From contig OZ022581.1 of the NCBI GenBank assembly GCA_963669155.1, positions 9,258,627 to 9,322,626 on the forward strand: 64,000 nt of DNA. Direction: 5' to 3'. The position numbers were made by a program, and so were the translations under genes. A model generated the notes under the pieces. The model was not told the DNA's origin. It did no database searches and saw nothing but the letters and a program-made list of their open reading frames with translations. This document shows positions 22,060 through 59,539 of this stretch, in pieces (the stretch's first letter is position 1; every line of letters begins with the position of its first letter). This stretch comes from Arbacia lixula (Eukaryota > Echinodermata > Echinoidea > Arbacioida > Arbaciidae).

Positions 22060-25000
22060 AATCTTTGTAATTCATGTAATTTTGCATTCTTCTTCTTCTT
22101 CTTTGTACCCGTAAACAACGATCCTCTCCTCTCTCATCCCAGATATCAAGTGGCCACTAATAGGTTTAGAGCGAGCATGGAGCGTCACAAGTACCCCTAC
22201 TTGTGACATGTTGGACCCACTTATACATCATGATGAATCAAGTGGTGTTCCAGTCCAGATCTTGTTTTTTTTTTCCTTCTAATCTTTATTGGCTGTATAT
22301 CGGGCCTTTACAGGTGAAGCGCTTTACGCATTCTCAATATAGTGCTGCGTACAGGAAATGAAGAAACGCGATAAAGAAACAATGGTGCATTATACTAGTT
22401 TCAATTGGTAATTTAAATGTTAATGCATAACAGATAACATTGCCACAAAGCAGCTCAATCCAAGTTTAAACAATGATCAAAGTGCAACACTCTTGTCATA
22501 TCAACTGATGAAGGGCACATGCAGTTGTGACAAGAGGATGGACACATCATTATTATGGTATAACAGTTCTGGTAGACTCACCGGTACCGTTCTCATTTAC
22601 GTCATGGAATTTCTCCCAGGAATAATGAAAAAACATGAGATTTTAAGTTCTGAGGCCATATTCATGAAACCTTACTAGCCTAGTTGGTTTCTAAAATGCA
22701 TGTAGCTGAATGCCTTTTAGTTGCTAACGATGCTTAAGGTTTCATGAATATGGCTCTTGAACTCGAGCAAAAACGGGACCCATGCCCACACTATGGTCCC
22801 GCTGTAGTGACACTATTGGATATTCCATTTATTCATTTCATTTTGATGATATGTTTCATTTAGCCAGGGTGGACTGCCTTACGAAAGAGCCCTAGAATTT
22901 AAAGGGGTAATTCACTCGAGTAAAGTCAGTGTTTGTGAAAAAAAAATATATATGTATATAAATCAGGTTGGTACATATTGCAAAAGAAAAAAGCTATGCC
23001 TTTTATTCACATTTGCAAACTGCAAATCCTGGTAATATTGACACTATATTGGAGTTATTTGGCTTAAAGTTGATATACAATGGAGAAGGAGGGGGTATAT
23101 TGAGACCAATACCATTGCCCATACAAAATTGCGCAAGGAGCGTTAATTAATTTAATGTATCTCGTCATAGATATTTTTATAATGTACGGTGGTTTTTGTT
23201 TGAATTAGCGAAAATCATGTGAGCTGTACATAGCTATAATGATATTTTGGTTGCGTATGCAGATTTTGAAAGGGTTTTGTTCAGCCGGGAGAAACGTTTT
23301 CACATTCGAACTTCAGTGGAATGTTCTTTTGCAAACATGAATGTCTCATTTTATTTTGTACAATTACAAGTGTATTTGTTAATACGCATCTCTCTGTTTA
23401 ATATATAACTACTCCGAGATTATCCCTCGCTTCCCTCCGCTCTCTATTATTTGTATTCTCTTCCCAAATCCGTCCCTGGGTAATGTCTGTCTCTCCCTAC
23501 CATCTCTCATTCTTTCTGAATTCCTCCCCTGCTCTCCTTACCTGTCATCCTACCCCCAGCCCGCCCTCTCCCCAATACCCGCATGCAATCACACATCTCC
23601 CCCAAAAGGCCTAAAACACTCTTTCCCCGTTTCTCACTCCCGTCATATCCCCCCTCTTCCATTTAAGCCGCAGACACAAAGGAGAGGCTGCCGTTTGACA
23701 ATCTCTTATCAGTCTGTCTTTCCGAGGTTGATCTTTAGAAAGTGTGGGTGCCCGTGGCATGCAAAGCGCTCTTTCATTCAATCGTCAGGTGTGGGGAGAA
23801 GTGTTAAGCTGCCAGCTCCTAACCCTTAGAGGGCTGGAATCATTCCGCTTTGCAATCAACCATAATTTTGCCACTTCCTATTACAACACTGCCTTGTTTA
23901 CACCAAAAAATAAAACTATACGCTTGACGTAGGTTGATTAAATTGCTTTTAAATATTTAAAAACAAATCAAATATGACCTTATATCTTGTTTACTTGCTA
24001 GGTGTGCATGCACATCTAAATATAATTTAGAATGAAAAAAAAACCAGATTGCTTATGCACGACGCAGAAACTTAACTCGAATTAAGTAATGAAATCATTC
24101 GGACAGGTTGGATTAACAAAAAAAAAAGTAATGGTTTCTGCACGAAGATTTGAAATCTCTATGCGCAATTGACTAATTTCTTCCCAAGTGATACACAAAA
24201 ATCTGTTAATGCAGCAATCAGGCTGACTAACAAAGGCTCAAGCACTAGATTTGAAATATTGTAAGGCACAGGCAAATATTCACTATCAAATCACACATTA
24301 ATCCCTTGCGCCATTCGAAATACTGTTACATGGGAGTTGCGTTAATTACTCCGGCAAAGGTATTTCAGTCAAGAGTTGATAGAAGCTATGACGTGTTGAT
24401 GTCTTGTTATCGGCAGTACACAAAATTGATTGCCTTCAATGTATGATTTCACCAAAAATGATGGAAGCTCTTCAAACACTGAACATTGTTTGATTTCCAC
24501 ACAATGAGTTACCCCCTTTCTGCTCCCTGTAATTTTCTAGGTAAGCAAATTGACTGGTCATTATGGTTTAGTTTAACTGTAAAGGAAATGATTATAATGA
24601 AATCTGTTTTAATGACCACTTTTACCGTGTGTGATTTAATCACAAAGACTATATTCTTTATTAAACTGTGTTTCTCACTGAAAAATAAAGTTACCTGTAC
24701 ATAAAGACCACCTGCTTAAGAAGACCACATCAATCGTCTCCATTGTGCAGTGTTCTTATGCAGAAAAAAATAAATTCTGTAAAACATGGCAGGAACCCCA
24801 AGTATGACGTTAATGTCACGTTTGTGACACAGTGTTTAAGAACAGCACGAAAAAAAAAGACATATACAGGTAACTATGAATAAGAATACAGTGAAAGTCG
24901 CTTCGAGATCATATGAATATTCTGCGGGATGTTCTAATAAAACAGTATTATGATCGTGTACACAGCTTGGTAAAGTCATTTAGAAATACAGAAAAGAATA

Positions 25001-28762: not shown

Positions 28763-31456
28763 CTAAATCAACCATGTCAATGAACCATTATTGAAATCAA
28801 AAAGGGCATTGTTAACTGACCACTTACGAAGAAAGGTATCAATGTTATTACAAAATTTGTAAAACGATAACTCAAAAATAATTTTGCTTTTGAGGCGGTG
28901 TTGCCAGATCATGAGTGGGTCAGCAAAGGAACATGAACGATATAAATTATAGATAACGAATTTGCAGCTGATGATGAGGTAGTTCCCCAAATGGACCGCA
29001 TCCCCACTACGGCTCACGGCGCGCGGGATCAGAGACCAGTACAGGTCAAAGTTCAATTTAGCAGAAGGTAGGAGACGTTTGAGAAGTGTGTGGAGTAGTT
29101 TGAGTGCGGGCTGTATGGCTGGGCATTGGATGAAGAGGTGTTGTATTGTTCCAGCTTCTCCGCACCAGCCACAAACTGGAGGTATGTCTGAGTTGATGTG
29201 ATGGAGAAAGTTGTGGAATAATCTGAATTGTAAGTCACCTTCCTTTTTCGAGGTGGGCAAGTGGTAAATTAGGGTCCATTGCAACTTCGTGGAAGGATCG
29301 AGGAAACCTATGTTGTGCCAGTGAGATGGAGTAGGTGGTGACAGGTGATGATTCAACCTTCTGTTGTAGAGGTTGTACAGTACTTTTGGTGATGCTGTTA
29401 GTCCGTTGGGTAGCGATGATAAAGAAAAGTCCACAGGTGAGTTGATATCAGGATGAGCAGCAAATTCTGAAAGTTCGGGAACGGAGAGACGACAGCCATT
29501 TTCGTTAAATATTTCAGGAAAGTTTATGCAGAGCGCATGGTAAAGACTACGCAGCTCAAGGATGAGAAGACGAAGGGATGGAGGTCGACAACTGTGGTGA
29601 AGCCTCTGGCTTTGAAGAATACGCGGGTCAATCCAGCGTCCTGTGGAGAAGTCGACCAGCTGGTGCACGAGCCTCACTCCGCACGCCATGAGCCGAGTGG
29701 GGAAAAATCTATCATCATCAACTGCATTAACAAAGCACAAACTAATTACAGGCATATTAAAGACATGGTTGATTGTGGCAGGTTGTGTTCTAACTCGAGC
29801 TCCAGAGGTCTCCCAAGAAAGTAATAGCTCACTATGAAAAAATGGAAGGCTAGTGTAAAACTTTGGGTTGATTGCAATATAAAATAACTGATAGTCAAAC
29901 CCAAGTTTACAATACTGCTTAAAGAAATGAGACATTAGATGGTAGGCAGGGTGCAAACTGAGATTTAAAAAACGTTGAATCACTGAAAACCTAAAAGTAA
30001 ATGTACGTGCTTTAAGACAGGCCAGGCCAAGACCTCCTTCATCTGGTCTTTGGTACAAAGTTTTTCTCTTGAGATAGTGGCGTTTATTGGACCAAACGAA
30101 GTCGACTAGAAGGTTCTGGAGCTCATTAAGTGTACTTTCATGTGGAGATAGGACGGCCAAATAGTGAAAGATTTTGGACGCAGCCAACTGATTAGCAACT
30201 ATTACTTTGCCTTTAAATGATAAAGACCTTAAGTCACGAGACCAATGCGACAAGGTTTTGGCCATTTTATCTTTACATTCTGTCCAATTTTGTTTTAAGT
30301 ATGTAACACTATTTCCGAGGTGAACTCCAAGAAAATGTAGTCCTTCACTATTCCACGAGAAGTTCAACGGTGTATCGCTTCGTCCGGTCCAACAGCCGAC
30401 CCATAGGCCCTGAGATTTCTGAACATTTAGACGCGCACCAGAGCCTCGACTAAACGTGGCATAAGCGTCTCGAATCGCAGAAAATCCGACGTTAGAAGTT
30501 ACAAAAACTGTCACATCATCAGCGTACGCTGAAACCACACAGGGGGTTGGGGATCCGGGAATGGTCAAGGATGAGTTTACTAGGCTTTTCCTTAGCAGAT
30601 TTAAGAAGGGCTCGATTGCAATGGAGTAGAGGAGGCCAGAAAGAGGGCACCCCTGACGTATGCCCTTTTCAAAAGAAAAGGGGGCAGTCAGGGAGCCGCA
30701 TATCTTAATCAAGCTTTCAGCACCTTCATACATTGTTTGAATGTAAGAAATAAACTGATCCCCAAATCCCATGCTCTTCAATACTTTGAATAGATACACA
30801 TGATCCACATTGTCAAAAGCTTGCCTTTGGTCTAGGTTAAGTAGAGCCAAAGGTAGGTCATTTATATTTGCATACATAATTGAATCACGGATGAGATGTA
30901 TGTTATCAAAAATGGAACGGCCTGGGACACAATAGCTTTGGTCAACCCCTACAACGTTCTCAATGCATTGCTTTAGTCTTGCTGCAAGTATTTTTGCGAG
31001 GATCTTATAATCTGTGTTTAAAAGTGACACAGGGCGCCAATTCGAAATATCGACAAGATCTCCCTTTTTGGGTAGGAGTGTAATGACCGCTCTCCTGAAG
31101 GAGTGGGGTAAAGAGCCAGAATCAAAGGAAGAAATGAGAACAGACAGCAAATCTTTTCTAAGTATGGGCCAAAAAGCTTGATAAAATTCTGCTGTAAGGC
31201 CATCTAAACCAGGTGATTTGTTTTTGCTTGACTGCTTGACGGCAGTGTCAAGTTCCTCTAAAGTAGGAGGAGAGTTTAGGTCTTCCGAGACTGCCGGATC
31301 AAGCATTCTCACGTCTGATAAAAGGGCGGTGATTGAACTCTCATCAGTGCTAACGCGGGAATATAATGATTTGTAAAAGTCCCTAACATGCATTTTAATT
31401 TCTGTAGGATCTTCCGAAATACGACCGGATGAAAGGCGGACGCGGGATATATTTTG
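28763..31456 (-). CDS. LINE ORF2, 3' part: reverse transcriptase (frameshifted from 5' part)
   Basis: This encodes the reverse transcriptase that copies the element RNA at the nicked target. Visible RT motifs are NKSPGLDGLTAEFY, LNLDQRQAFDNVDH, GIRQGCPLS and the catalytic AYADD. Near the C-terminus CGWC, then H and C in GTIQHLFIQC, form the CCHC knuckle typical of L1/Tx1 ORF2. The longest ATG-started frame is 31,393-28,763 (876 codons), but similarity to LINE ORF2 continues upstream in this frame to about 31,456. There it must join the endonuclease frame. The two frames differ by one base at an AAAA run, which is best explained by loss of one A. Total ORF2 would be about 1,300 residues, a normal length. 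The sequence past RT is free of stops, so the copy is young or the shift is a sequencing error. Confidence 0.85.
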   Translation of the reverse strand, partial: QNISRVRLSSGRISEDPTEIKMHVRDFYKSLYSRVSTDESSITALLSDVRMLDPAVSEDLNSPPTLEELDTAVKQSSKNKSPGLDGLTAEFYQAFWPILRKDLLSVLISSFDSGSLPHSFRRAVITLLPKKGDLVDISNWRPVSLLNTDYKILAKILAARLKQCIENVVGVDQSYCVPGRSIFDNIHLIRDSIMYANINDLPLALLNLDQRQAFDNVDHVYLFKVLKSMGFGDQFISYIQTMYEGAESLIKICGSLTAPFSFEKGIRQGCPLSGLLYSIAIEPFLNLLRKSLVNSSLTIPGSPTPCVVSAYADDVTVFVTSNVGFSAIRDAYATFSRGSGARLNVQKSQGLWVGCWTGRSDTPLNFSWNSEGLHFLGVHLGNSVTYLKQNWTECKDKMAKTLSHWSRDLRSLSFKGKVIVANQLAASKIFHYLAVLSPHESTLNELQNLLVDFVWSNKRHYLKRKTLYQRPDEGGLGLACLKARTFTFRFSVIQRFLNLSLHPAYHLMSHFFKQYCKLGFDYQLFYIAINPKFYTSLPFFHSELLLSWETSGARVRTQPATINHVFNMPVISLCFVNAVDDDRFFPTRLMACGVRLVHQLVDFSTGRWIDPRILQSQRLHHSCRPPSLRLLILELRSLYHALCINFPEIFNENGCRLSVPELSEFAAHPDINSPVDFSLSSLPNGLTASPKVLYNLYNRRLNHHLSPPTPSHWHNIGFLDPSTKLQWTLIYHLPTSKKEGDLQFRLFHNFLHHINSDIPPVCGWCGEAGTIQHLFIQCPAIQPALKLLHTLLKRLLPSAKLNFDLYWSLIPRAVSRSGDAVHLGNYLIISCKFVIYNLYRSCSFADPLMIWQHRLKSKIIFELSFYKFCNNIDTFLRKWSVNNALFDFNNGSLTWLI

Positions 31457-32658
31457 GAGAGGGAGTTTGACTTTTCTAGATTAAAGAAATACTTGGAGCA
31501 AGAGTCTGTTTCAGTTGTGTGCTGGAAACGAGATCTAATTAGTGCACCCTGTGCTTCAGTTTTCAGCAATAGGTTCAATGCATCTCTTTGCTCAGCAAGG
31601 GCTTCTGTAATGTTCGGATTGTGGGCTGATACTGACTGTAATCTATCGATGCTTTTATTCATTTCTATAAGGGTGTTGTGTTTTTCTTTTGCAATCCTGG
31701 AACTAAACATTTGGGTAATTGATTTAATATGTATTTTACCAAGATCCCACCAGGACGCCTCATTGGAAAAACTGCATTTTTGTTTTTGCCAGTCCAACCA
31801 AAATGTTGTGATTAATTGCCTATAACTTTTATTTTCAAGGAGAGAATTGTTGAAGTGCCAGTAAGCGCTCCCTCTCTTGACTTGCTCTGGATATTTAAGA
31901 ACGAGCGAGACAGATGAATGGTCAGATAGGGAACAAGATAGAATATCACAAGAATTGACAAAGGAAGCCAGACAGTTCGGGAAATAAAAGCGGTCTAGCC
32001 TGGATTGTGAACAACCAAATTTGCTAGTGGGATTCTTTCTATACCAGGTATAACTCTTTTTATCAGGGTGCAGTCTGCGCCAAACGTCACACAGAGACAA
32101 TGCATTGAATACGTTCGTTAATGCATGGGCGACTTTCGTTCTCCGTTCTACTGGTACGCCCAGGCGGTCAACCGCGGGGTTCTCAGTACAATTGAAATCC
32201 CCGCCAAAAAGTGTGACACCGTCGCTGCGTCTGGAACAGTGGTCGTATAGGGCGGTTATCGCCTCCAGGGCTAATTTATTATCTTGCGGAATTAATATGT
32301 TATAAATGTGATAATTACGTCCATTATAATCAATTTTGTTATATAGAATATGACCATCAAATACAGAATCGAATGACAAAGGCGTAATCTTAGATTTATT
32401 AATGAGAGTAGTGACTCCTGAGCCACGAGAAGAGCCCGGCGAACAAAAAGGGGAAGATGGCCACATGTTCCAGCAAGCGCTATGATCATTTAAGGCGTAC
32501 GTTTCTTGCAGCAACACAATATCGGGTTTAGAAGCTATGCGATCAACATAAATTTGAAAAGAAGCGTTTTGAGTTTGTGCAAAACAGCCACCTGTATTAA
32601 GGGTGAGCAGTGACAATGTCATTGCTAAAGTAAAAAGGGTGATATTGAACGGAGTCAT
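31454..32658 (-). CDS. LINE ORF2, 5' part: AP endonuclease (frameshifted)
   Basis: This encodes the N-terminal endonuclease that nicks target DNA and so sets insertion specificity. Motifs of the exonuclease III/AP endonuclease fold appear in order: LLTLNTGG near residue 20, DIVLLQET near 50, GGDFNCTEN near 155, and SDHSSV near 250. The ATG at 32,658 lies 9 bases past the ORF1 stop, so translation may depend on reinitiation. After LEKSNSLSK the frame runs into non-homologous residues and stops at 31,309. The true continuation is in the next frame from about 31,456 (NISRVRLSSG). There is no N-terminal zinc finger. Confidence 0.85.
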
Positions 32659-32668
32659 TGTGATTACC

Positions 32669-34267
32669 TTAGTTGTCTAGTGTGGCGAGCAACTTGTAAA
32701 TCCTTTGTTGCATGTTTTTCTTTAAGAGGGGGCTATTTCTTAGTGGTTTTAATTGTTTAACTAGCCCTGGGATATTAGTGGTATATTTCTTGGCTATTTG
32801 CACTGGCTTTTTGCGACCTTTGACTGAGGAAAGAAAATCCACCATTTGGGGTTGCGTGAGGGGACCCTGGGTAAGGGGGAGGGTGATCTCATTTGTAAGA
32901 TCATCGTCTGTTTGCGTCTCTTCCCCTATGACAGAATCCCCTGTGACAGAGTCGGTGTCCGCATCACCTGTGGGCGGAGGGGTGGTAGGGGCGGAGGAAG
33001 TAGTGTTTAAAATCTGGGATAAGGACAGTGGTTCTGTGGACATAGGGCTGGCTGTCCTTTTTGGCTGCTTCCTTAGGGGGGAGGGGGCCCTCAGGGGAGT
33101 GAAGTTTAATCTGTCCTCTGAGGCTGGAGGTGAGCTGGGGGCTTGTTTGCGTTTTGCAACTTCAGAGAAGATTCTGGAAAGGTTGGGAGGTGCCTTCCAA
33201 AGTGGACTTTGGGGGGCGGGAACCGAAAGTGCATTACATGAGGGCTTTGAAGCCCCACCGGCCGTCAGCACGCGCGAATTAGACCCGCCAGGTTTGGATG
33301 AAGAGGGCACAATGGAGGGGAGAGAAGGGCAAGATGAGGTCCGGGGTAGAGGATTAGTGGCACCGCCGGTCTTGGTTCTCTGGAGGGAGATGGGAGGGAC
33401 TCGCGCAGGGGCGTGGCTGGTGTGGGGCGGGGTCGCGGGACAGTTTGCCTCTACAGGAGGACCGGGCGATTCAGGGACGGGGCCGTTGGGTTCAATGAGT
33501 GCTGGGGGTCCTGCATTGGAGGCTCGAGTTGATGTACGTGGGACCGGTAAGTCATTTGTAGGGACGTGGGTGCGGGGCGGGGCCGGGTCTTCGCGTGCTG
33601 GCGGGCGGGGAGCTGCAGCTGATGGCTGTTTCTTGCATGCGCGGGAGATATGGCCGAATTCACCGCAAGTGAAACAGCGTACCGACCCTGTCGAAATGAA
33701 AACACGGTGGTTGATACCATCGTGTGTGAGATTGATGTGATCGGGAGGGGTAACATTGGGATTGATTAAAACTTGTACTTGGCGTCTGAAACTCATAATG
33801 TGACTCAATCGTTTGTCTTTTAATCCTAGGGGGATGGGCCGTATGGATGAGACAACCTTGCAGAAAGGCGTCAGATTGTCTATTAGAACTGAATTGGGTA
33901 TTTCTGGAAACACGTTAGAGAGCGTCAGTTTAGTTGTCGGGCGAACAAGAGGTGTGAGCTCAACGAACGAGCCTGCGTATGAAAGATCGTTTTGTACCGC
34001 ATTGACCACAGCCTCTTTTGAATTGAGGTATACAGCAATGCGACCACCTGAGATTCGTGAAGCCGTAATTACATTCTTTGCTGGCATTACGTTAATTAAT
34101 GCATCAATGTAAGACTGAATGGAAACATTTTCCGTAGCTTTGAAACACACCCCATTGTTCCGGGTTACGTTCTTGAATTGTTCAACGCCGGGAACACTGA
34201 GGTTTGACGGGCCAGCTGCACTGGGTAGCTGGCCCTGCGTTACGCGAGCGTATGCTTGGCTAGCCAT
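32669..34267 (-). CDS. LINE ORF1 (gag-like RNA-binding protein)
   Basis: This encodes a 532-residue protein that presumably coats the element RNA. Residues 1-170 include a region compatible with an RNA-binding fold, followed by one CCHC knuckle, CFTCGEFGHISRAC (C-X2-C-X4-H-X4-C), near residue 205. A long disordered part rich in proline and serine follows (residues about 220-440), then an acidic/threonine stretch and a basic C-terminal tail. ORF1 of Tx1-clade LINEs is built in a similar way. The frame is intact from ATG (34,267) to TAA (32,669-32,671). A 342-codon open frame on the opposite strand is a shadow caused by its GC-rich proline segment. Confidence 0.8.
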   Translation of the reverse strand: MASQAYARVTQGQLPSAAGPSNLSVPGVEQFKNVTRNNGVCFKATENVSIQSYIDALINVMPAKNVITASRISGGRIAVYLNSKEAVVNAVQNDLSYAGSFVELTPLVRPTTKLTLSNVFPEIPNSVLIDNLTPFCKVVSSIRPIPLGLKDKRLSHIMSFRRQVQVLINPNVTPPDHINLTHDGINHRVFISTGSVRCFTCGEFGHISRACKKQPSAAAPRPPAREDPAPPRTHVPTNDLPVPRTSTRASNAGPPALIEPNGPVPESPGPPVEANCPATPPHTSHAPARVPPISLQRTKTGGATNPLPRTSSCPSLPSIVPSSSKPGGSNSRVLTAGGASKPSCNALSVPAPQSPLWKAPPNLSRIFSEVAKRKQAPSSPPASEDRLNFTPLRAPSPLRKQPKRTASPMSTEPLSLSQILNTTSSAPTTPPPTGDADTDSVTGDSVIGEETQTDDDLTNEITLPLTQGPLTQPQMVDFLSSVKGRKKPVQIAKKYTTNIPGLVKQLKPLRNSPLLKKNMQQRIYKLLATLDN

Positions 34268-34479
34268 GGTGGCTAGTCAGCGTAATGCTCATTGCAATGG
34301 TGCGAAAAAGAACCTTAAATTTCACGAAAATGATACAATCAGTACGAATACAATGTAAATCAAGCACATCTATAACACAACATTAATATAATAGTATCAA
34401 GACCTGAGACCTACCTAGGTCTTATGTACGCAAAAAAAGGGAGATTCTGGAGCCCGATACGAACACAACCTACCTGAGA

Positions 34480-35056: not shown

Positions 35057-35781
35057 CCTTGTATCACAAAGAGTCGGCTATTGCACCTCACCATATCGCA
35101 AACTATCACTGCTATCTATTGCAATTTCAAGCCTATGCATGATTTTGCAATCAATCGTATAGTTACGATAAATCCACACAAGCTGCGATCAGCATCAATT
35201 GCAAGTTACGATCGATATCGATCGTAGGTTGTTGGGGGTTTTTTAAAAATATTTTTTATCATTTTCTCTCAAATCAATTGAACAAATCATTCTTAATTAA
35301 ACTTGATACATGGTACATTGATATTTTGAATTAAGCATGAATTGCAATAGTTATATAAAAAAGAAAAAAGGGAATTTTCATATATTGTTTACAAAACATT
35401 ATTGTACAATCAAGAATCTCGAGAGAAAAGTTTTATCTATATATTCTCCTATCCCCTACCCCGTTTGAACATACTGCTAACACCTTCATCCACACACCCA
35501 AACTCACAAATACATACGCACCCTCACACACACAAACACGCAGCACACAAACACTCACCTACACACACAAAAAAAAAACATGTGTACCGAGGGATATATG
35601 CAAAAGTACTGCAATCGCAGCCGTTCCATCATTTTTTATTTTCTAACCAAAAAATAGATGTATTCGCTTCGCCGTCATTTGTGATACAGATTTACGATTG
35701 ATATTGATCGTACGATCGATAAATCAGTCGTACGATTGATATATCAATCGTATGATCAATTATCGCTCTTTGTGATCTTGC
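35057..35781. mobile_element. Candidate non-autonomous element rich in ATCGATCGTA motifs
   Basis: Ends read TATCACAAAGAG (left) and CTCTTTGTGATC (right), an imperfect inverted pair about 725 bp apart. Just inside both ends are repeated palindromic motifs such as ATCGATATCGATCGTA and GTACGATCGAT. A related sequence (CCACACAAGCTATGATCAGTATC, then ATCGATTG) occurs at about 43,000-43,115. No coding capacity. Confidence 0.35.
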
Positions 35782-36130: not shown

Positions 36131-36324
36131 ATACAAATATTTCATGACTATGAGGGATCTTGTGGAATCTATTTGCACCGAGGTTAAGTGGAGGGCGCGC
36201 AGTACTATTTTCCCGATACTGCAGGTCGAGGGAGAATGGTACCGCTTGCCCTCCACTTTACCGAGGAGACCAATAAATTCCACAAAGTTCCCGAATAAAG
36301 ATCATGAAATATTTGTTTTGTATC
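36131..36324. mobile_element. Fold-back MITE
   Basis: ACAAATATTTCATGA and then CTTGTGGAAT and AAGTGGAGGGC on the left reappear inverted on the right (GCCCTCCACTT, ATTCCACAAAG, TCATGAAATATTTGT). This makes an imperfect hairpin of about 195 bp with a short central loop near 36,200-36,235. The arms diverge in places. No protein. Confidence 0.6.
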
Positions 36325-36931
36325 CTTCATTAATATATTCTTTGTTCATTAATTTAATCCTTACCATGGACCATGTAATAGCTCCCATGCTCTAAACTCT
36401 AAACGAAGGAGCCCGATTCAGATGGTTTGTTATTTCCTACGGCTTGAGCAAACTAACCAAATTCAAGTTGCACATCGGCCGCATCGTTCGCATACATTGT
36501 CATTCGTTCGCGACACGTTTTACATACGTTGTATTAGTTAGCTGCTGGTATATACAGTTGGCAGCAAAATTATTCAATCCCCCTCTCATTTTTGACATTC
36601 TGTCATAATGAATAATATTGCAGCAGCAGATTGCTACTAAACCATTAAGATAGTTAGCAGACAGTTAATTACTAAAGAATACCAGAGAAAAAATCAAATA
36701 CTATTGCATAGGTCATCTGAAATTGCAATTTGCGCCCCCAAAACATGGTGCAAAATTATTCAACCCCCTATTTTACACACAAGAAACGAATGCACAAATA
36801 ATGACAATTTAAAGGCCAGTGCATACATTCTGAGGTGAATGCTGATTTTATTTATCCTCCACCTGAAACTGGAACCTTTATATGCACAACTAACAAGTTG
36901 TAACATTATTCAACCCAGATGGGTGTGTCTT

Positions 36932-37150
36932 TTAGTACTTTGTGCAGCATCCATATGCTGCAGTGACCTCCTGCAGACGAGATGAATAGCCTGCCACAAG
37001 CTTCTCACAACGCTCCTTGGGGATGTCAGCCCATTCCTCTTGCGCAATGGTCTTAAGGTAATCGATGCATGTATGTCTACGTGCTGCAACAGCTTTCTTC
37101 AGATCCCACGACAAATTCTCTTTTGGGTTTCGGTCTGGAGACTGTGATGG
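36932..37150 (-). pseudogene. Tc1-like transposase C-terminal remnant, longer copy
   Basis: Minus-strand reading gives SPDRNPKENL and then SWDLKKAV. This matches the SPDxNPxEN block of Tc1 transposases, which holds the last catalytic acid. The remnant ends PKERCEKLV and GCCTKY, like the Tc1 family C-terminus (PxR...GGxTKY). Everything upstream (DNA-binding and first catalytic residues) is absent. It cannot be a working enzyme. Confidence 0.75.
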
Positions 37151-37154
37151 TCAC

Positions 37155-37274
37155 TCAAGGTGCGCAAGAGGAATGGGCCAACACCCCAAGGAGCGTTGTG
37201 AGAAGCTTGTGAGAGGCTATTCATCTCGTCTGCAGGAGGTCATTGCAGCAAATGGATGCTGCACAAAGTACTAA
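37155..37274 (+). pseudogene. Tc1-like transposase C-terminal remnant, shorter copy
   Basis: The plus strand repeats the end of the remnant on the opposite strand (PKERCEKLV, then YSSRLQEV and GCCTKY) with a few differences, and lacks the SPD/PKEN block. The two copies face outward from the element centre near 37,150. Confidence 0.7.
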
Positions 37275-38016
37275 AAGACACACCCATCTGGGTTGAATAA
37301 TGTTACAACTTGTTAGTTGTGCATATAAAGGTTCCGGTTTCAGGTGGAGGATAAATAAAATCAGCATTCACCTCAGAATATATGCACTGGCTGTGAAATT
37401 GTCCTTATTTGTGCATTCGTTTCTTGTGTGTAAAAAAGGGGGTTGAATAATTTTGCAACATGCTTTTTGGGTGCAAACTGCAATTTCAGATGACCTATGC
37501 AGTAAAATTTGATTTTTTTCTCTGGTATTCTTTAGTAATTAACTGTCTGCTAACTATCGTAATGGTTTAGTAGCAATCTGCTACTGCAATATTATTCATT
37601 ATGACAGAATGTAAAAAATGAGAGGGGGGTTGAATAATTTTGCTGCCAACTGTAGGGGTTCGCAGAGTCACGATGACATCAATACTGTTTTTTTTAGTAA
37701 TTTGAGCGTTAGGCATGGTCGGCATACGATGTGAATTTGTTTGGCGTTGGTAGTGTACTTTCGGCATTCGTTGGATGGACGCTACGCCTGCGCTGTCAGT
37801 CGTTATTATAAGCGCTCCTTATACGAGCAGAACGATCGTTACCCATTTGGCTTACACGCCAAGGCTCAATCACATTTTGGTATCTCAATTTTTCCACCGT
37901 GTACTAGCCAAATTTTGCACGCCAGGCACAAATGTGTGTCAAACACTAAAGTGTGACGAACCTACCCACTCTACGACCATACTGTACCTACTGTACCTAC
38001 TGTATATATTGTTCTT

Positions 38017-38883: not shown

Positions 38884-41800
38884 ATGAGCGGAGGCGTTTC
38901 TTATTATGGGAGCAAAATCAGCCTCATATCGAATGCTGGGATTCGATATGAAGGTCATTTGTTCTCTGTCGATACAAATGAGTCGACAGTGACATTGTCG
39001 AAAGGTGAGTTACATGTAGCGTACAGGAATCCACTGCGTATATTGCGGTGTTGTGTAGTTTAGAAAACATCCATGTTCAGTGTTCTGCGTGCGTGCATTA
39101 GGGCATTGGATATTGTTTACACGAAAATTGATGTTTACTTGGCAGCAAATGCTAGGCTACACAAGTGAAACGAGTGTTAAATAATGTGCATGTTGTCAAA
39201 AGACGCCACATTTTACAAGGTGAACAAACCCCATCAATCGGTTAGACTTGACCGAAGACGAAAATAATGAAAAATGTCATGAATGTGGAAGTCTGATTAT
39301 TTGCATTGATGGGGTGACCATATTTTGCGCACATCCTGGTTTTCTTGACAATTTCAAGACACCTAGATTATTACACATAATGTCCAATACCTCAAAAGAT
39401 ATGAAAGAACGAGAACATCTGTATAATCACATTTCATGGCCTAGAATTCAAATTTCAGATTAGGCCTAGGCCTAAAATGAATGTAATTCCGAGACATGTA
39501 CAATGGTCGACGCTTACCGAAATAATGACTCTGCTGTCGGCGCATGCATGACATGTGTGACCTAATTTTGCGCAGTAAGTTTGCTGCCCTCTAGTAGTTG
39601 ACAACAAGTGTAAAATGGTCGAAAACCACCTCGTATTCTCAAGGCAAGCACATACCAACCAATCGAGTAAATACCTCAAAATTGGTATTCTTTATTGATT
39701 TTCTCGAGGTTATTTCTGTGTATGTTATGTGATAAAAAATAAAGAATTTCATTCATAGGAATGTGAAATATGAGGCATTATTACGTTCTTTTGAAGCATT
39801 ATGGATGTTCAGATGATGTATCTAGTACGAAGAGTAGATCTACAGTAACTTAGTCCCACGTGTGCATTGCGTATCTCATTTAGATTCTAAGCGTATTTAG
39901 CGTTAGTGCGCAAAATAAGGACAGGCACGAGATTAGGTCACACCACAGTACCTGTGGCAGTGCATTTATCAACATAACTCAGAGAGACTAGACTGGTTCA
40001 CAATCAGTTTAAGAAATAATGTAAATCATGAAAATGCATGGTGCAACTGAAAAATTACCTTGAAATATTGCACAGTGCGCAGGGCCGGCATTGTATATGG
40101 TACAAACGCATATTTGAATCCCATATTAGTTTAATACAACCAAGTTATTGTTGGCAGAAAGTGACCTACAATTCTCTAGAAATCACTTTTTTTGAGGCAT
40201 TTATCTCTGCAAAATAAGTCAGTCTTGTCTCTAAGTGCTAAGATTAATGAAAGGTAGAAAAAGATTTAAGGGTTGTCAAATGTGTGAGAAACAAAAGTGC
40301 ATTTGAGCCAAGGCTCTGACTTAAATGATAAATCACTTTTAAATAAACTAGCTTTTGACATTTGCTCTTTGTGTGCCAACATTCAATAAATCTTTCATTA
40401 TCATTGGGGAGCATTTTGTATTTCACTTGTCTTCATTATTTGAGCAGCATTATGTATAGTCTAAGTTTTGTCTGTTGAATGGTGTTTGGACGGGGATAAA
40501 AAATGGGCTAAAGTCGAAGATTGGACAGGATAGATTTTTGAAATTTTGCCAGGTAATGCCCTTAAAAGGATGTTTTAGGAGGGCAAAATTTTGTTTCCTC
40601 AGTAATTCATTTGTCGTTTTTAACCCTTTGTGTGCCAAACAAATGCTACTCTATGTGAATTGTGCATATCACGTGTGAATAAAGATGCATGTGGCACAAA
40701 AAGGGTTAAGAGATCCCATTTTGTGGTGATTTTGCATGCATTGTCAATGCCAGCAGCAGCACAGATCAACCATTTTTTAGAATTGCAAAGTTCATTGGTC
40801 ATTTCTGCTTCTTACTAGTGCGCTCATTTGGGACGGAGGAACGAGTGTGTGACCACCCAGTGGCCCAGCGAGATGAGATGTATGACTATATCGTGTTCCG
40901 AGGTTCCGACATCAAGGACCTTCTGGTGTGTGAGCCACCTAACCAGCCCCAGAGCACCTCCATTGCTCAGGACCCAGCTATCCTCCAGGTCAGCAAACAG
41001 ATCTTCCCTTGGCTCTTTATGTGCCATTGTGTCATGCAGTTTTTTTAAAAAGTAATACACACACAAAAATAGCATTATGTCTAGCTCACAGAGGGCTACA
41101 AACTTTCTGTGAGGAGAAAAAAAAAAGAAATGTATTTTGATGATGAAAAATGTGGAGGGTATCCTTATAAACTCTAATAAATCAAGCCATTAACTTTCTT
41201 TGTATTTTGAATATTTAAATAGCATTTAAATTGATGCAAATGGATGAGAAGTACATGTATATCACAGCTTAAAGGAATTGTCATAGGGAGAGGGAAAGGG
41301 AAGAAAGGGAAGGACCCATAGTTTTAAGCCGCCGTATATTTTGTCCAGTTCAGCATGAAACATGATGCTTTTTAGGCTAAAGCATTGTGTTTCATGTTGA
41401 ACTGGACAAAATATACCACAATTTAAATCTGCGGCTCCTTCTCTTTCTTCCCTTTCCCTTTCCATATGCCAATTCCTTTAAGCTGTTGTGTATGTTTCAA
41501 CCATCAGCAATAAATTCCTGTAGAAGATATGCATCCCACGGTTTGAAATTGTTTGGTGTTATTTTTGTTTTAATTTTTGTTTTAATTTTTGTTTTACCTC
41601 TGTCCATCCTACATGTATACCACATCTCCAGCATTCGGGGGCAGTCAGTACCACCAGCGCACCAGCCTTTCGGCCTCCCAACACTTTTGCCACAGCCCCA
41701 GCCCCCTTTGCCCCATTCAACGTCCCCTACCAGTATGGTGCTATCGGGGGCATGATGCCTAACCAGTTTGGAGCAGCTCAGGCTCAGAGGACTATTGGAG

Positions 41801-52149: not shown

Positions 52150-54750
52150 TCAAGTGTTCACGTTGCATTTCTCTAAAAGAGTGTGAATTATGAAAGTCAA
52201 TGATTGAGAAATGATTGAGATGATATATACATGAATAGCATAATTATGACAGGTAGATACTCCCTATGAAGTCGTCCTAATTTTTAAATTTTACCATGCA
52301 GAATCCCCCAGGAATATCATACAAATTGGTGGAAAGTTGAATTGTGACTTCAACCATGCACAATGTATCGTGGCTTAGAGTTTAAAAAAAAAAAAAAAAA
52401 ATTACAGCAGGTCACTGAAAGTTGTAGCAAAATTTAGCAAGAGATGCAGAAAATTCATAATTTTACCTTAACCCAGTGTACTTTCCTTGAAGTTGGTAAC
52501 GGCAAATTGGGACGATAAAAGAACATCTGGTTTGCCATGTTCTTCATGTATATTTTTGCTTAGAATAATCATTACCTCATAAATACTAATATATTATTAT
52601 TACAGGTAGTCGTAAGATACTCGTCGAACATTTCCACTTTCTTTAAATGATATATATGTATACCATTTTACCTGTGCATTTTATATACACTGTATCATGA
52701 TACACATTTATTTACAGGCACACCTTTATGACAACGATGCATTTCTCCATTAAAAAAAAAAAAAAAAAGGGGCAATTTATGGAATCATACAGCATACTAA
52801 ATATAGGAGAACACCTCGCAAGTGACGTCACAATAGTAAACATTTAAGAAACTCGTAAATTTGTTATCCTTTGACGGATTCTCTTCAAACCTTTACTAAT
52901 GTGACGTTTATTATTTTCTGCTTTTATTAAAACAAATTTAACTGTGGACAGCTCTACTTAGTTTGTAACTAGACACACCCTGCACCCCGTTTGACTTGAC
53001 GGGCTCAGGGACCCATTTCTACATTCAAATTCCAGGGACACATTTATTATTGATGACAATCCGTTCTTTTTTTTTTTTAAAGAGAATGCTAACTGATATC
53101 CAAGACTACTCGTGTACCGATCGATCGATGGAATTTCAGACAAATTTATAGCCTTTTTAACGAAACCCTTCAATAATGATTAAAGTATCAGGTTGAAATG
53201 TTGATAACTTCTTAAAATGTGGGGCGAAGTATCATTCTATGGTTTGATGTACAACACATCATTGTCATGAAAATTGTTATATCAATCTCTCATTTTCATA
53301 TGTGAAAGCAATTCATTCCATTTTGGTCATGTTCGTGTTGAAAGATAACATGTCCATGCTACTCTTAACACGCATGCCATTCTTAAAGTTAATGTCTGAA
53401 GTTGTTATCAAGTTACGCGCCCTAAGGATCGTCCGCTGGAGAACAATAATGTATTCGACAGGGTCCGAGCATTTCTAACAGTTTGGAACTGAGGTTAAAG
53501 TTTAATTGAATTCGAAAGTCGCCTCAGTGCTAACTACATACTCGGATTTATAACTCGGCTTCGAGTTCCGAGAAACGCGCGGCGCCCCAAGATTCCACTC
53601 GCATGTATTTCCCCAGGGGTCTCGTGGCTATTTTCAAAGACGAAGACGCCGTCATGGTATACACTCTAGCATCGGCTCCAACCTATATAAGCTGCGTCAT
53701 CAATTAAAAAAAGATATTGTTAGAGGAAAGAAGGAAACTTGGAACCATGCTTACATGGCATCACATCGAGGTGCTGCCAATTTGAGAAGTGGTTAAACTG
53801 CTACTTTTATAACTTCCTGTTAAGTAATTTGATAAAAAGTACTACCGGACTTTCTTTGCTAACCTGCTTCTTGGACTTTTCCTCTCTTGTTACATTACAG
53901 TAATGCAATTTCCTTCCACAGGTTTAGGTGCACTGGCTCTACATTACTTGGGAATTTCCTTTCAAACTGTTTTAAGTGTGATTCAGACGTTCTTGTGGCT
54001 TTATCCGTGCAAAAGCAAATCCTGCCCACAGATACATAGAGGCGTTTGGACTAACACTTCGTCTTGTCTGACAAGCAGTGTAATGCTTAATGATATGATT
54101 CATGAAGATACGCTAAGTTCAAAATGTACGTACCTTCTGTTTTCATCCCGAGGGACCAATTCTTTGTCATTTTACAAATTACATCTTTGAGAGAGAGTCA
54201 GGCTGCCGTGTGTGGTTCTCTGACTCATTATCATCCAGAATCCACTCTGACGAAAGGTCACAGTCAGCTCTCTCAGTCACGGCACTGAAGTAACTGGTAA
54301 TTAGTCTAAAACCAAGACTTAAATGTTAAGACGTAACATGAATTAATTCTGTAATGCTGCTCCAATAGATTTTCGTTTCATCCCTTTGTTATCCTAAAAT
54401 AACTTCCTGTTACTCACTATCAAAATATACCACTAAGTGGAATCTACTAATAAAGTAGTTATTATCACGCTGTTATTATGAACGCTGTTTTAAGTCATAT
54501 TCGGTCCATCTCCAAAGTTCTGTAGATGAAATCAATGATACCTAAGAAGCTTTTATTAAGGATACATGTAATACAATTTCTTAAAACATTTTTAAGATTT
54601 TAGGCAGCTTATTATAAAACAGGCATTGTGTACAAATTGACGACTAAATTTTGCATCACCACTTGGGTTCGTCTGCTAGTGACTGACATAACTTTATCAA
54701 CTTGTTTTTTTTTTTTTTTTAGGTTTTATGTACCTTAATTTCAAACACAT
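52150..54750. other. Intergenic DNA
   Basis: Two poly-A runs (about 52,384-52,401 and 52,750-52,768), a copy of the CRE-bearing repeat (52,811-52,885), and a CpG-richer segment (about 53,500-53,700). That segment ends in CTATATAAGCTGCGTCATC (near 53,683), which looks like a TATA box. No gene is found downstream of it, so a promoter is only a possibility. Confidence 0.35.
52811..52885 (+). repeat. Dispersed repeat carrying a perfect CRE
   Basis: Plus-strand partner of the repeat at 17,750-17,835: ACCTCGCA, GTGACGTCAC, and TTATCCTTTGAC in the same order. Confidence 0.45.
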
Positions 54751-54752
54751 TG

Positions 54753-55114
54753 AAAGGGCATATATTGTACTGGGAAGGCAAAAAAGCCTTCAAAATGTAA
54801 TTGTTAGCAGTCTTCTTGCCAATGGTCTTAAATTCATGTATTGTCTATTTTAGAAGCTTGCTGAAAGTTATTTGCCCTCAAATGATCCACATATGGAGTA
54901 ATTAATGATTAAATCCTCAAAATGTTCGGCCCAAACATTTTGAGAATTTGTGATTTAATCACTCATTACTCCAAATGTAGATCATTTGAGGGCAAATAAC
55001 TTTCAGCAAGCTTCTAAAATAGACAATACATGAATTTGAGACCACTGGCAAGAAGATTGCTAACAATTACATTTTGAAGGCTTTTCTGCCTTCCCAGTAC
55101 AGTATATGCCCTTT
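54753..55114. mobile_element. Near-perfect hairpin MITE
   Basis: A 362-bp element whose two halves are inverted copies, from AAAGGGCATATATTGTACTG at the left to the inverse TATATGCCCTTT at the right. Only a short loop lies near 54,930. The right flank is TTAA and the left flank TTGA, so TTAA-type insertion is possible. No coding capacity. Confidence 0.8.
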
Positions 55115-55393
55115 AAACAAAGTGCGTGTACGTTTACCTAAGCATGCTTCTTAAGCCATACCTTGTTGTTTCTTTAAGATGAACTCCTTCACAACTCTTG
55201 GAACACTAAATGCAAGTGTTTTATCTATTCTTTTAAACAATTTGTGTCATAATAATGCCTAGACATTTATACAATCAATGTACATTTATTATGTTCACTC
55301 AAAAAGTAAGCATGACTGCGTGCTTCTAAGAAATGTAATTTACGACACTCACTCTGTGTGAACGCGGATAAACTTGGAGATGCACAACTTTAA

Positions 55394-56062
55394 GGGTCCC
55401 TGCAATCAAAATGCATGTTGACTTATGTTGATTCAACTTAATATGCATATCACAAAATCAGTAACGGCTTAATGGAAATATGTGTCCTTTATTTTAAAAT
55501 AATTTTTCTATATTTTTTCTCAGCACTGATAAGCCCCGCCTCCAAAAATATCCTCCAACTCAAGATTCTTGCTGTGACATCATCACAGGTATAAATTAGC
55601 AAGAAAATAGACATAATTTATGCACAAACTAAACATTGCAATGACTACCTGCAAGTGTTTATAATGTCATCGCATGTTTATACAATGTATTTCCCCCCTT
55701 GGCATATAGCAAGCACATTTCTGACATAAGGAAACGATTATTCCCACATGAAAGGTTGCTAGGTTGTATTGTGTGAAGACATGTGATGCTCTCGTGGGCA
55801 GGTGGGGGTAGTCATTGCAATGTATAATTTGTGCATAATTCTGTCTATTATCCTGCTAATTTTTAACTTTGATGACGTCACAACAAGAATCTTGAGTTGG
55901 AGGAAATTTTTGGAGGCGGGGCTTATCAGTGCTGAGAAAAATATAGAAAAAATTATTTTAAAATATAGGACACATAATTCCATTGAACAGTTAGTGATTT
56001 TGTTCAATACATGTTAAGTTGCATCAACAGACATCAACATACATTTTGATTACAGGGGACCT
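55394..56062. mobile_element. Fold-back MITE with TTAA target duplication
   Basis: A 669-bp element flanked by TTAA on both sides (55,390-55,393 and 56,063-56,066). Each arm is about 250 bp; the inverted ends are GGGTCCCTGCAATCAAAATG and the inverse of AGGTCCCCTGTAATCAAAAT. Both arms contain GCCCCGCCTCC and a CRE-like TGACRTCA. The loop (about 55,650-55,800) is unique. TTAA duplication fits piggyBac-type mobilisation. Confidence 0.75.
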
Positions 56063-56099
56063 TTAATGGGGAAATGAAAGAGGACGGGCATGGATTTGA

Positions 56100-57320: not shown

Positions 57321-57538
57321 GCAGAATCAAGCCCACTTCCGGAGAAGTTCTTGTATGTATGCAATGGACTTGACATGTTTATCAAATGTAAGAACCAAGG
57401 TGTTGCTGTATTGACACTGAATAGAGCCTTGATTTCAAATCTTTGATATGTGTATTATGAAACTTGCAAAATCTCGCAATTATTATTCTCGTAAATATAA
57501 AAGATTAGGAGTATTAGTGGTAAAGACTACAGGGTTTA

Positions 57539-58266
57539 CACTACAGCTCAAAGGAATTGGCATAGGGAAAGTGAAAGGGAAGAAATGAAAGAAGCCGGAA
57601 GTTTTGAACCGCGGTATATTTTGTCCAGTTAAAGATTGTCCGTCCCTTTTGCAAGCTTAAAATTTGAAATCGTCTATCACGATCGTAAATTGAAGAAAGT
57701 GTGATTCAAGAACATTTCTAAGAATATAGCATGTTGAAGCTTTCTGTATATGTAAAAAAATTCAGCCGTTAAATTTCAAACCGACTTTTTTCGTACTACG
57801 AAAAAAGTATTAGTCTTCGTTACAGTATCTATGTGGTTATTATGCGTGTGTGAAATCCTAATCTTATGAGTAATTACCAAACTTTGGAGATGATTCCTCC
57901 TATAGAACATTTTTTTTTTCATAATGCGTTTTATAATTTGATAAACAGATTAATCAGTAAATCAGATACTTCAACACAAACTGCTCAGAGCCTGAGGTAA
58001 AGACGTTGTTTATACGTGCATTATTTGAATTTTACACTTCGTATCAGTTTCAAATTTTGAATATAGAGCTTCCTAACACTTCTCTATATGTTTTACCAAT
58101 GTTTCGATAATTATGTGGTGATCTGAAAAAGGGACGGGCTGTCTTTAAGCATGAAACAGGCTAAAGCATCGTGTTTCATGCTGAACTGGACAAAATGTAC
58201 CGCGGTTTAAAACTGCGGGTCCTTCCCTTTCCCCTTTCCCTATGCCAATTCCTCTGAGCTGTAGTG
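57539..58266. mobile_element. Palindromic TA-flanked MITE, copy B (itself interrupted)
   Basis: Same family as 41,263-41,490 and 59,341-59,535: ends CACTACAGCTCAAAGG and its inverse, flanked by TA on each side. Without its insert the copy would be about 212 bp, matching the other copies. The insert lies next to the ATTTTGTCCAG motif near the centre. Confidence 0.8.
57633..58144. mobile_element. TTAA-flanked MITE inserted in copy B
   Basis: 512 bp between TTAA at 57,629-57,632 and TTAA at 58,145-58,148. Inverted ends are AGATTGTCCGTCCCTTTT and, inverted, AGACAGCCCGTCCCTTTT. Removing it with one TTAA restores GTCCAGTTAAGCATG, which matches the centre of the other copies (GTCCAGTTCAGCATG). The interior includes the palindrome CTTTTTTCGTACTACGAAAAAAG near 57,786. 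No protein. Confidence 0.75.
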
Positions 58267-58484
58267 TAAACCCTGTAGTCTTTACCACTAATACTCCCAA
58301 TCTTTTATATTTATGAGAATAATAATTGCGAGATTTTGCAAGTTTCATAATACACATATCAAAGATTTGAAATCAAGGCTATATTCAGTGTCAATACAGC
58401 AACACCTTGGTTCTTAAATATGATAAACATGTCAAGTCCATTGCATACATACAAGAACTTCTCCGGTAGTGGGCTTGATTTATT

Positions 58485-59265: not shown

Positions 59266-59340
59266 ATAAGGTAGTAACTCATCCTGAAAACAAGTTGCTT
59301 TCAAAAGAAGCAAAATAAATAAATAAATCAGATCAATGTA

Positions 59341-59535
59341 CACTACAGCTCAAAGGAATTGACATAGGGAAAGGGAAGGAGCCGCAGTTTTAAACCGTGG
59401 TATATTTTTTCCAGTTCAGCATGAAACATGCTTTAGCCTAAAAATCATGTTTCATGCTGAACTGGACAAAAGCTACCGCAGTTCACAACTGCCGCTCCTT
59501 CCCTTTCCCTACGCCAATTCCTTTGAGCTATAGTG
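59341..59535. mobile_element. Palindromic TA-flanked MITE, copy C
   Basis: A 195-bp uninterrupted hairpin: CACTACAGCTCAAAGGAATTG at the left, inverse CAATTCCTTTGAGCTATAGTG at the right, TA on both flanks, centre TTCAGCATGAAACATG with its inverse. It serves as the intact reference for copies A and B. Confidence 0.85.
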
Positions 59536-59539
59536 TATG

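Follow-up and report, generated by a model that had tools for sequence, protein, structure and literature searches.

At positions 57325-58480 of the window (the 64,000-nt stretch analysed here, G000:C6:9258627-9322626, part of a 607-Mb assembly in 590 contigs to which all genome-wide counts refer), a MITE sits within a second MITE, B, and B in turn sits at the exact centre of an inverted pair of 212-bp arms which, on the evidence below, does not look like a transposable element. This outermost layer was probably made by one fold-back, or template-switch, event at the B hairpin that mirrored 212 bp of the adjoining flank. Assembly size, a LINE and the MITEs identify the DNA as that of a eukaryote. 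The features of the locus, together with the two other copies of B in the window, are as follows.

57325-57494, plus strand: left outer arm, low-copy part (the 216-bp query 57325-57540 has two genome matches, both here)
57495-57533, plus strand: piece of dispersed repeat D, reading in the direction of the axis and truncated at it (the left limit is approximate; from 17-mer and shuffle tests)
57537-57538, no strand: TA, left target duplication of B (from the sequence)
57539-57632, plus strand: left part of B, a TA-flanked palindromic MITE, ending in TTAA at 57629-57632
57633-58144, plus strand: third element, a 512-bp TTAA MITE with a terminal inverted repeat of about 20 bp
58145-58148, no strand: TTAA, second copy
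58149-58266, plus strand: right part of B
58267-58268, no strand: TA, right target duplication of B
58272-58310, minus strand: mirror copy of that D piece (limits taken over, mirrored, from its left-arm counterpart)
58311-58480, minus strand: right outer arm, mirror of 57325-57494
41264-41492, plus strand: another B copy, without the outer arms (from similarity within the window)
59339-59537, plus strand: another B copy, without the outer arms, TA included at both ends (from similarity within the window)

The outer arms, 57325-57536 and 58269-58480, align in inverted orientation over 212 bp with six mismatches and no gap (97.2%), and the E value of this match in the window, 4.6e-127, rules out a chance palindrome. 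Once the inserts are removed, what is left is a spacerless palindrome of 426 bp that has no mismatch in the 30 bp to either side of its axis and contains 41 TAs, of which the one on the axis, at position 213, is the site in which B sits. The preliminary description was therefore right that a 2 x 214-bp palindrome is split at its central TA, the TA being counted there with each of the 212-bp arms. Its statement that each excision in thought restores the layer below holds as well: with the 512-bp insert and one TTAA taken out, B (57539-57632 plus 58149-58266, 212 bp in total, interrupted by the 512 bp of 57633-58144) becomes colinear with the two other B copies in the window, and with B and one TA taken out, the outer arms form an exact palindrome at the axis.

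B is an abundant, dispersed MITE with a TA target duplication, itself a palindrome of roughly 200-230 bp. The first look at the 607 Mb gave 2169 candidates, and among the 40 that were scored the lowest identity was 82% in the better orientation, with rows down to 77% in the other; the pattern of end plus TA was seen on both sides in 18 of the 24 fetched B loci, on one side in five and on neither in one. We take B to be of the Tc1/mariner type, a superfamily name drawn from the target duplication only. The copy at the locus is 80.5% identical to its own reverse complement over 226 columns, with a 36-bp stretch at 89%, its arms differing by substitutions and by a 9-bp gap, and such an inverted repeat, placed at the axis, should be able to pair. 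The tips of B in the composite differ by two mismatches; as 13 of 25 other copies had two or fewer, tip similarity is not diagnostic as the mark of a copy boundary, and, these tips being no more alike than those of other copies, there is no trace of such a boundary inside B.

The 512-bp element is likewise an abundant MITE, here with a TTAA target duplication, and is presumably of the piggyBac type, again a name given by the target duplication only. It has 2146 first-look candidates genome-wide, 40 of which were scored at 93-94% identity apart from the element itself, with one further short fragment at 92%. By eye, TTAA is present on both sides in 16 of the 19 other fetched loci, and L034, L040 and L041 are loci of this element in which TTAA is altered on one side. 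The evidence supports B and the 512-bp element being separate elements, the latter having gone into B. Its insertion site, positions 91-94 of the 212 in B, is one of the two TTAA sites that B has at this locus and lies in the left stem, 12-15 bp off the axis, so that its position needs no special explanation; that B had been split at TTAA was correctly described, and only the phrase placing the split near the centre of B was loose. The presence of the 512-bp element in B is nesting of the ordinary kind, familiar from other nested transposons, from which the locus as a whole differs in that its outermost layer does not resemble a transposon. Both elements share with known TA-target and TTAA MITEs the target duplication, the terminal inverted repeats, the high copy number and a length too short to encode a transposase.

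With the same type of query that returned these thousands of candidates, the 216-bp outer arm returned two first-look candidates in 607 Mb and two matches, both of them its own arms. This count holds within the reach of the search, since the first-look filter missed the short similarity to D and may thus have overlooked diverged copies of the arm. Among 961 combinations of end shifts at the outer ends (up to 15 bp on each side, repeats of 4-12 bp), only one 4-mer was found as a possible target duplication; repeats of 2-3 bp were judged by eye only, and there is no TA at the left end. Target duplications read by eye in neighbouring palindromes are TA at 36553-37654, TTAA at 55389-56066 and TTGA/TTAA at 54750-55117. 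The pattern spanning the junction of arm and B occurs with no mismatch at this locus only, which rules out an extended end of B, and there are two further hits at three mismatches as against 12 hits for the control. Of the three transposable elements that had been described here, B and the 512-bp element are thus upheld, and the outer palindrome, with its own arms as its two matches and no target duplication, is not.

These observations also bear on a further idea, in one form of which B belongs with the outer arms to a single larger element and in the other the outer palindrome is an independent MITE of low copy number. Fully palindromic elements are indeed common in the window and in our sample, and a small family could be too divergent for the first look, but the pair of self-matches, the junction pattern found essentially here only and the missing outer duplication make either form of this idea very improbable. 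Arms and B had been expected always to occur together if they were one element; we find B without arms at 41264, at 59339 and elsewhere among the 40 scored copies, and the arm only here, so that a single composite element is rejected.

Within the reach of that first-look search the mirrored flank is otherwise single in the genome, except for its innermost ~39 bp, which are a piece of the dispersed repeat D, broken off at the axis; an arm that is wholly unique is ruled out by this piece, and a 20/21 match to the arm at L014 is the D motif. With no more than one mismatch allowed, the genome has 132 places that match the 17-mer of 57515-57531, two of them being the present arms, as against seven for the reversed control. 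In a comparison with 11 D loci, the 16 bp upstream of the 17-mer resemble D (3 of 2000 shuffles were as good), and the 20 bp downstream do not (320 of 2000). A mirrored partner of D within the fetched stretch was seen at one of the 12 other D loci scanned, L065 (the scan left out L055, which is the same place as L014). As D is cut at the axis here and is single elsewhere, the rest of D is missing beyond B, with the mirror in its place.

D copies are 68-85% alike pairwise in alignments of at least 46 bp, and within the set L053-L067 a conserved TAGTGGTAAAGACTACAGG block begins about 16 bp after TTAA in several copies. L060 has, between about 570 and 13 bases ahead of the D motif, a MITE-like element some 560 bp long whose terminal repeats measure 156 bp and which ends exactly at the TTAA with which D begins, as the MITE at L065 does.

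We infer an order of events in which B was the first to arrive, inserting in low-copy DNA, either within a D repeat or next to one. A later break in or beyond the right half of B, during replication or repair, would have left a single strand in which B could fold into a hairpin; the 3' end would then have paired with the left arm of B and been extended outward, copying in reverse first the left tip of B and the TA, then the D piece and some 170 bp of flank, until synthesis left its template and rejoined the sequence that now begins at 58481. The 512-bp TTAA MITE would have entered the B stem before or after this event. If the arms were copied back from the B hairpin, the exact centring of B would be automatic and would call for no targeting, and the same single step would explain the absent spacer, the arms confined to one locus, the lack of a target duplication and the truncation of D. 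Besides these features, the perfect core of the palindrome, the poor quality of the axis TA as a target and the case of L065 support the fold-back.

Inverted repeats in single-stranded DNA are reported (PMC6103520, PMC10164571) to fold back and give rise to inverted dimers or duplications, and to do so with divergent arms and long spacers as well. Against a fold-back at B stands the identity of its arms, 80.5%, which is near the reported limit, fold-back being described as suppressed at over 25% heterology (PMC10164571). In its outline the proposed event would resemble the fold-back inverted duplications of yeast and human, with pairing in cis, priming by the 3' end and a flank mirrored about a spacer; in large human inverted duplications a single-copy spacer is said to mark the fold-back loop (PMC3907307). 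The cases described there are large and proceed via dicentric or hairpin-capped chromosomes, whereas here 212 bp would have been mirrored, the event would have been closed locally and the spacer would be a complete MITE. Short-range template switching is reported to yield perfect inverted repeats (PMC7954356). Both in such switching and in the conversion of a quasipalindrome to a palindrome, local fold-back copying leaves a perfect inverted repeat, as we propose here; unlike in those events, the seed hairpin would be a transposon. Quasipalindrome and template-switch events usually copy a shorter flank than the one seen here.

The preliminary description had proposed the reverse order, with two successive insertions choosing the centres of hairpins. 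For the 512-bp element this does not hold, the TTAA having been hit off-centre in the stem. For B it would mean that a single-copy, perfect 426-bp palindrome existed first, perhaps through a sister-chromatid or end-to-end fusion inside D, that B then hit the TA at its centre, either fortuitously or because the tip of a cruciform makes a good target, and that the third element followed. We regard this history as somewhat unlikely. It would account for the exact palindrome that appears at the axis when B and one TA are removed, and for the stop of D at the axis too, and a perfect spacerless palindrome is the kind that would extrude most easily. It nevertheless needs a palindrome of unexplained origin plus an exact hit on one TA of 41, and by a target motif for B built from 41 half-sites the axis TA ranks 39th of the 41. 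The half-site retained in the present flank, AACCC, scores below all 41 half-sites, so that, whatever the model, an insertion of B next to this flank is odd; the improbability is smaller for one bad half-site (-6.3 bits) than for the two (-12.7 bits) that insertion into the palindrome would involve.

A comparable perfect centre was found in none of eight other palindromes that were aligned, a set that includes three B copies, one of them the B of the composite locus. A palindrome-rich sample of 211 kb yielded 19 spaced inverted pairs, six rows of which are the present locus. In the remaining 13, each of which was opened, neither a self-inverse stretch nor any of five elements already known is centred on the axis. 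The sample consists mostly of best matches and so favours intact copies. These 13 pairs count against a palindrome-first order, and the suggested attraction of transposases to cruciform tips is not supported. LTR retrotransposons are reported to have at most a slight preference for short palindromes (PMC6911290). In the same sample, L034 has a copy of the 512-bp element 47 bases off the axis of a 1.9-kb inverted pair, not touching its arms, and there are 50 symmetric hits, about half of them the B copies that had been searched for.

An inverted duplication might also be the by-product of an aberrant transposition of B in which ends of sister copies were used together, comparable to maize Ac/Ds. 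The mirror axis lies exactly at B, with TA on both sides, as such an event would have it, and rearrangements made by alternative transposition are described for Ac/Ds; a literature search on such events listed no case of the Tc1/mariner type, and L065 involves a TTAA element of another family. Segments produced by alternative transposition are usually far longer. Taken together we consider this origin quite improbable. Still less credible, indeed hardly so, is an inverted duplication made by the assembler: a single assembly is our source, but there are six differences over the 212 positions of the outer arms, and substitutions and a 9-bp gap between the arms of B, whereas a simple artefact would give an identical copy.

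The relative age of the layers bears on the fold-back reading weakly. Compared with the majority sequence of its family over 502 sites, the 512-bp element has 20 differences, 12 of them unique to it, and the outer arms show six changes over 424 lineage-sites (p = 0.014 when all differences are counted and 0.20 with the unique ones only, six of the 12 unique ones lying in one cluster that is perhaps misaligned). As the differences of the 512-bp element are not fewer than those of the arms, the palindrome is not visibly the oldest layer; gene conversion between the arms would also make them look young.

Whether a MITE hairpin has mirrored its flank elsewhere can be judged from the fetched loci, a set made up of the top matches from each search and therefore biased towards intact copies. 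At L065 (G000:C22, about 3932570) a palindromic MITE of the 54750 family carries mirrored D against both of its ends, with 50 of 56 bases equal as against the 68-85% between unlinked D copies; since this case involves D too, a property of D itself could matter. No mirror abutting the element was seen at any of the 24 fetched B loci, including the copy at 59339 (two of the 24 have an inverted match elsewhere in their flanks), at any of 19 other loci of the 512-bp element (three have such matches at other places in their flanks), or in 6 plus 16 further copies of the 54750 family, the ends of the 16 being placed within a few bases. In a 50-bp flank-mirror test the top score was 0.0 among 27 B copies and 7.0, at L040, among copies of the 512-bp element, against a 99% null of 5.0 and a null maximum of 10. 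The rarity of mirrored flanks in the fetched loci counts against the fold-back reading and makes the route at most an occasional one.

It is tempting to speculate that hairpin MITEs repeatedly seed mirrored flanks, that the products are raw material for palindromic elements, and that the composite and L065 are two snapshots of this process, an idea that we rather doubt at present. If true, it would mean that ordinary DNA is turned into longer palindromes centred on MITEs, and the genome-wide rate of such mirroring would bear on the origin both of long palindromes and of palindromic MITEs. The locus also offers a way of separating two look-alikes, a palindrome whose centre was hit by a transposon and one that arose around a transposon, and the tests used here (copy number of the arms, outer duplication, motif rank of the axis site and age of the layers) can be applied genome-wide.

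Comparisons beyond the assembly gave no match among phages and none for two other patterns among viral contigs; one hit to a viral contig, L001, is by eye a chance 17-mer. A literature search by element motifs listed unrelated subjects only.

The window holds several other palindromic elements. The one at 54750-55117 is a fully palindromic TTAA MITE, 90% self-complementary, whose family has 3425 first-look candidates in the genome, 40 of which were scored and are 95-96% alike in the better orientation, apart from the element itself. A palindromic, TTAA-flanked element of 677 bp at 55389-56066 is 79% self-complementary. The TA-flanked 1.1 kb at 36553-37654 consist of two inverted copies of one transposon-like end, with arms of 495 columns at 94%; from the end sequence, these arms presumably resemble the end of a Tc1-type transposon. 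Further small full palindromes lie at 22655-22754, 35703-35760 and 36133-36316. On the minus strand, 28763-34276 is a LINE-type retrotransposon with three frames, in which Pfam recognizes an endonuclease (PF03372) and a reverse transcriptase (PF00078), and the first frame resembles, by eye, a zinc-knuckle protein.
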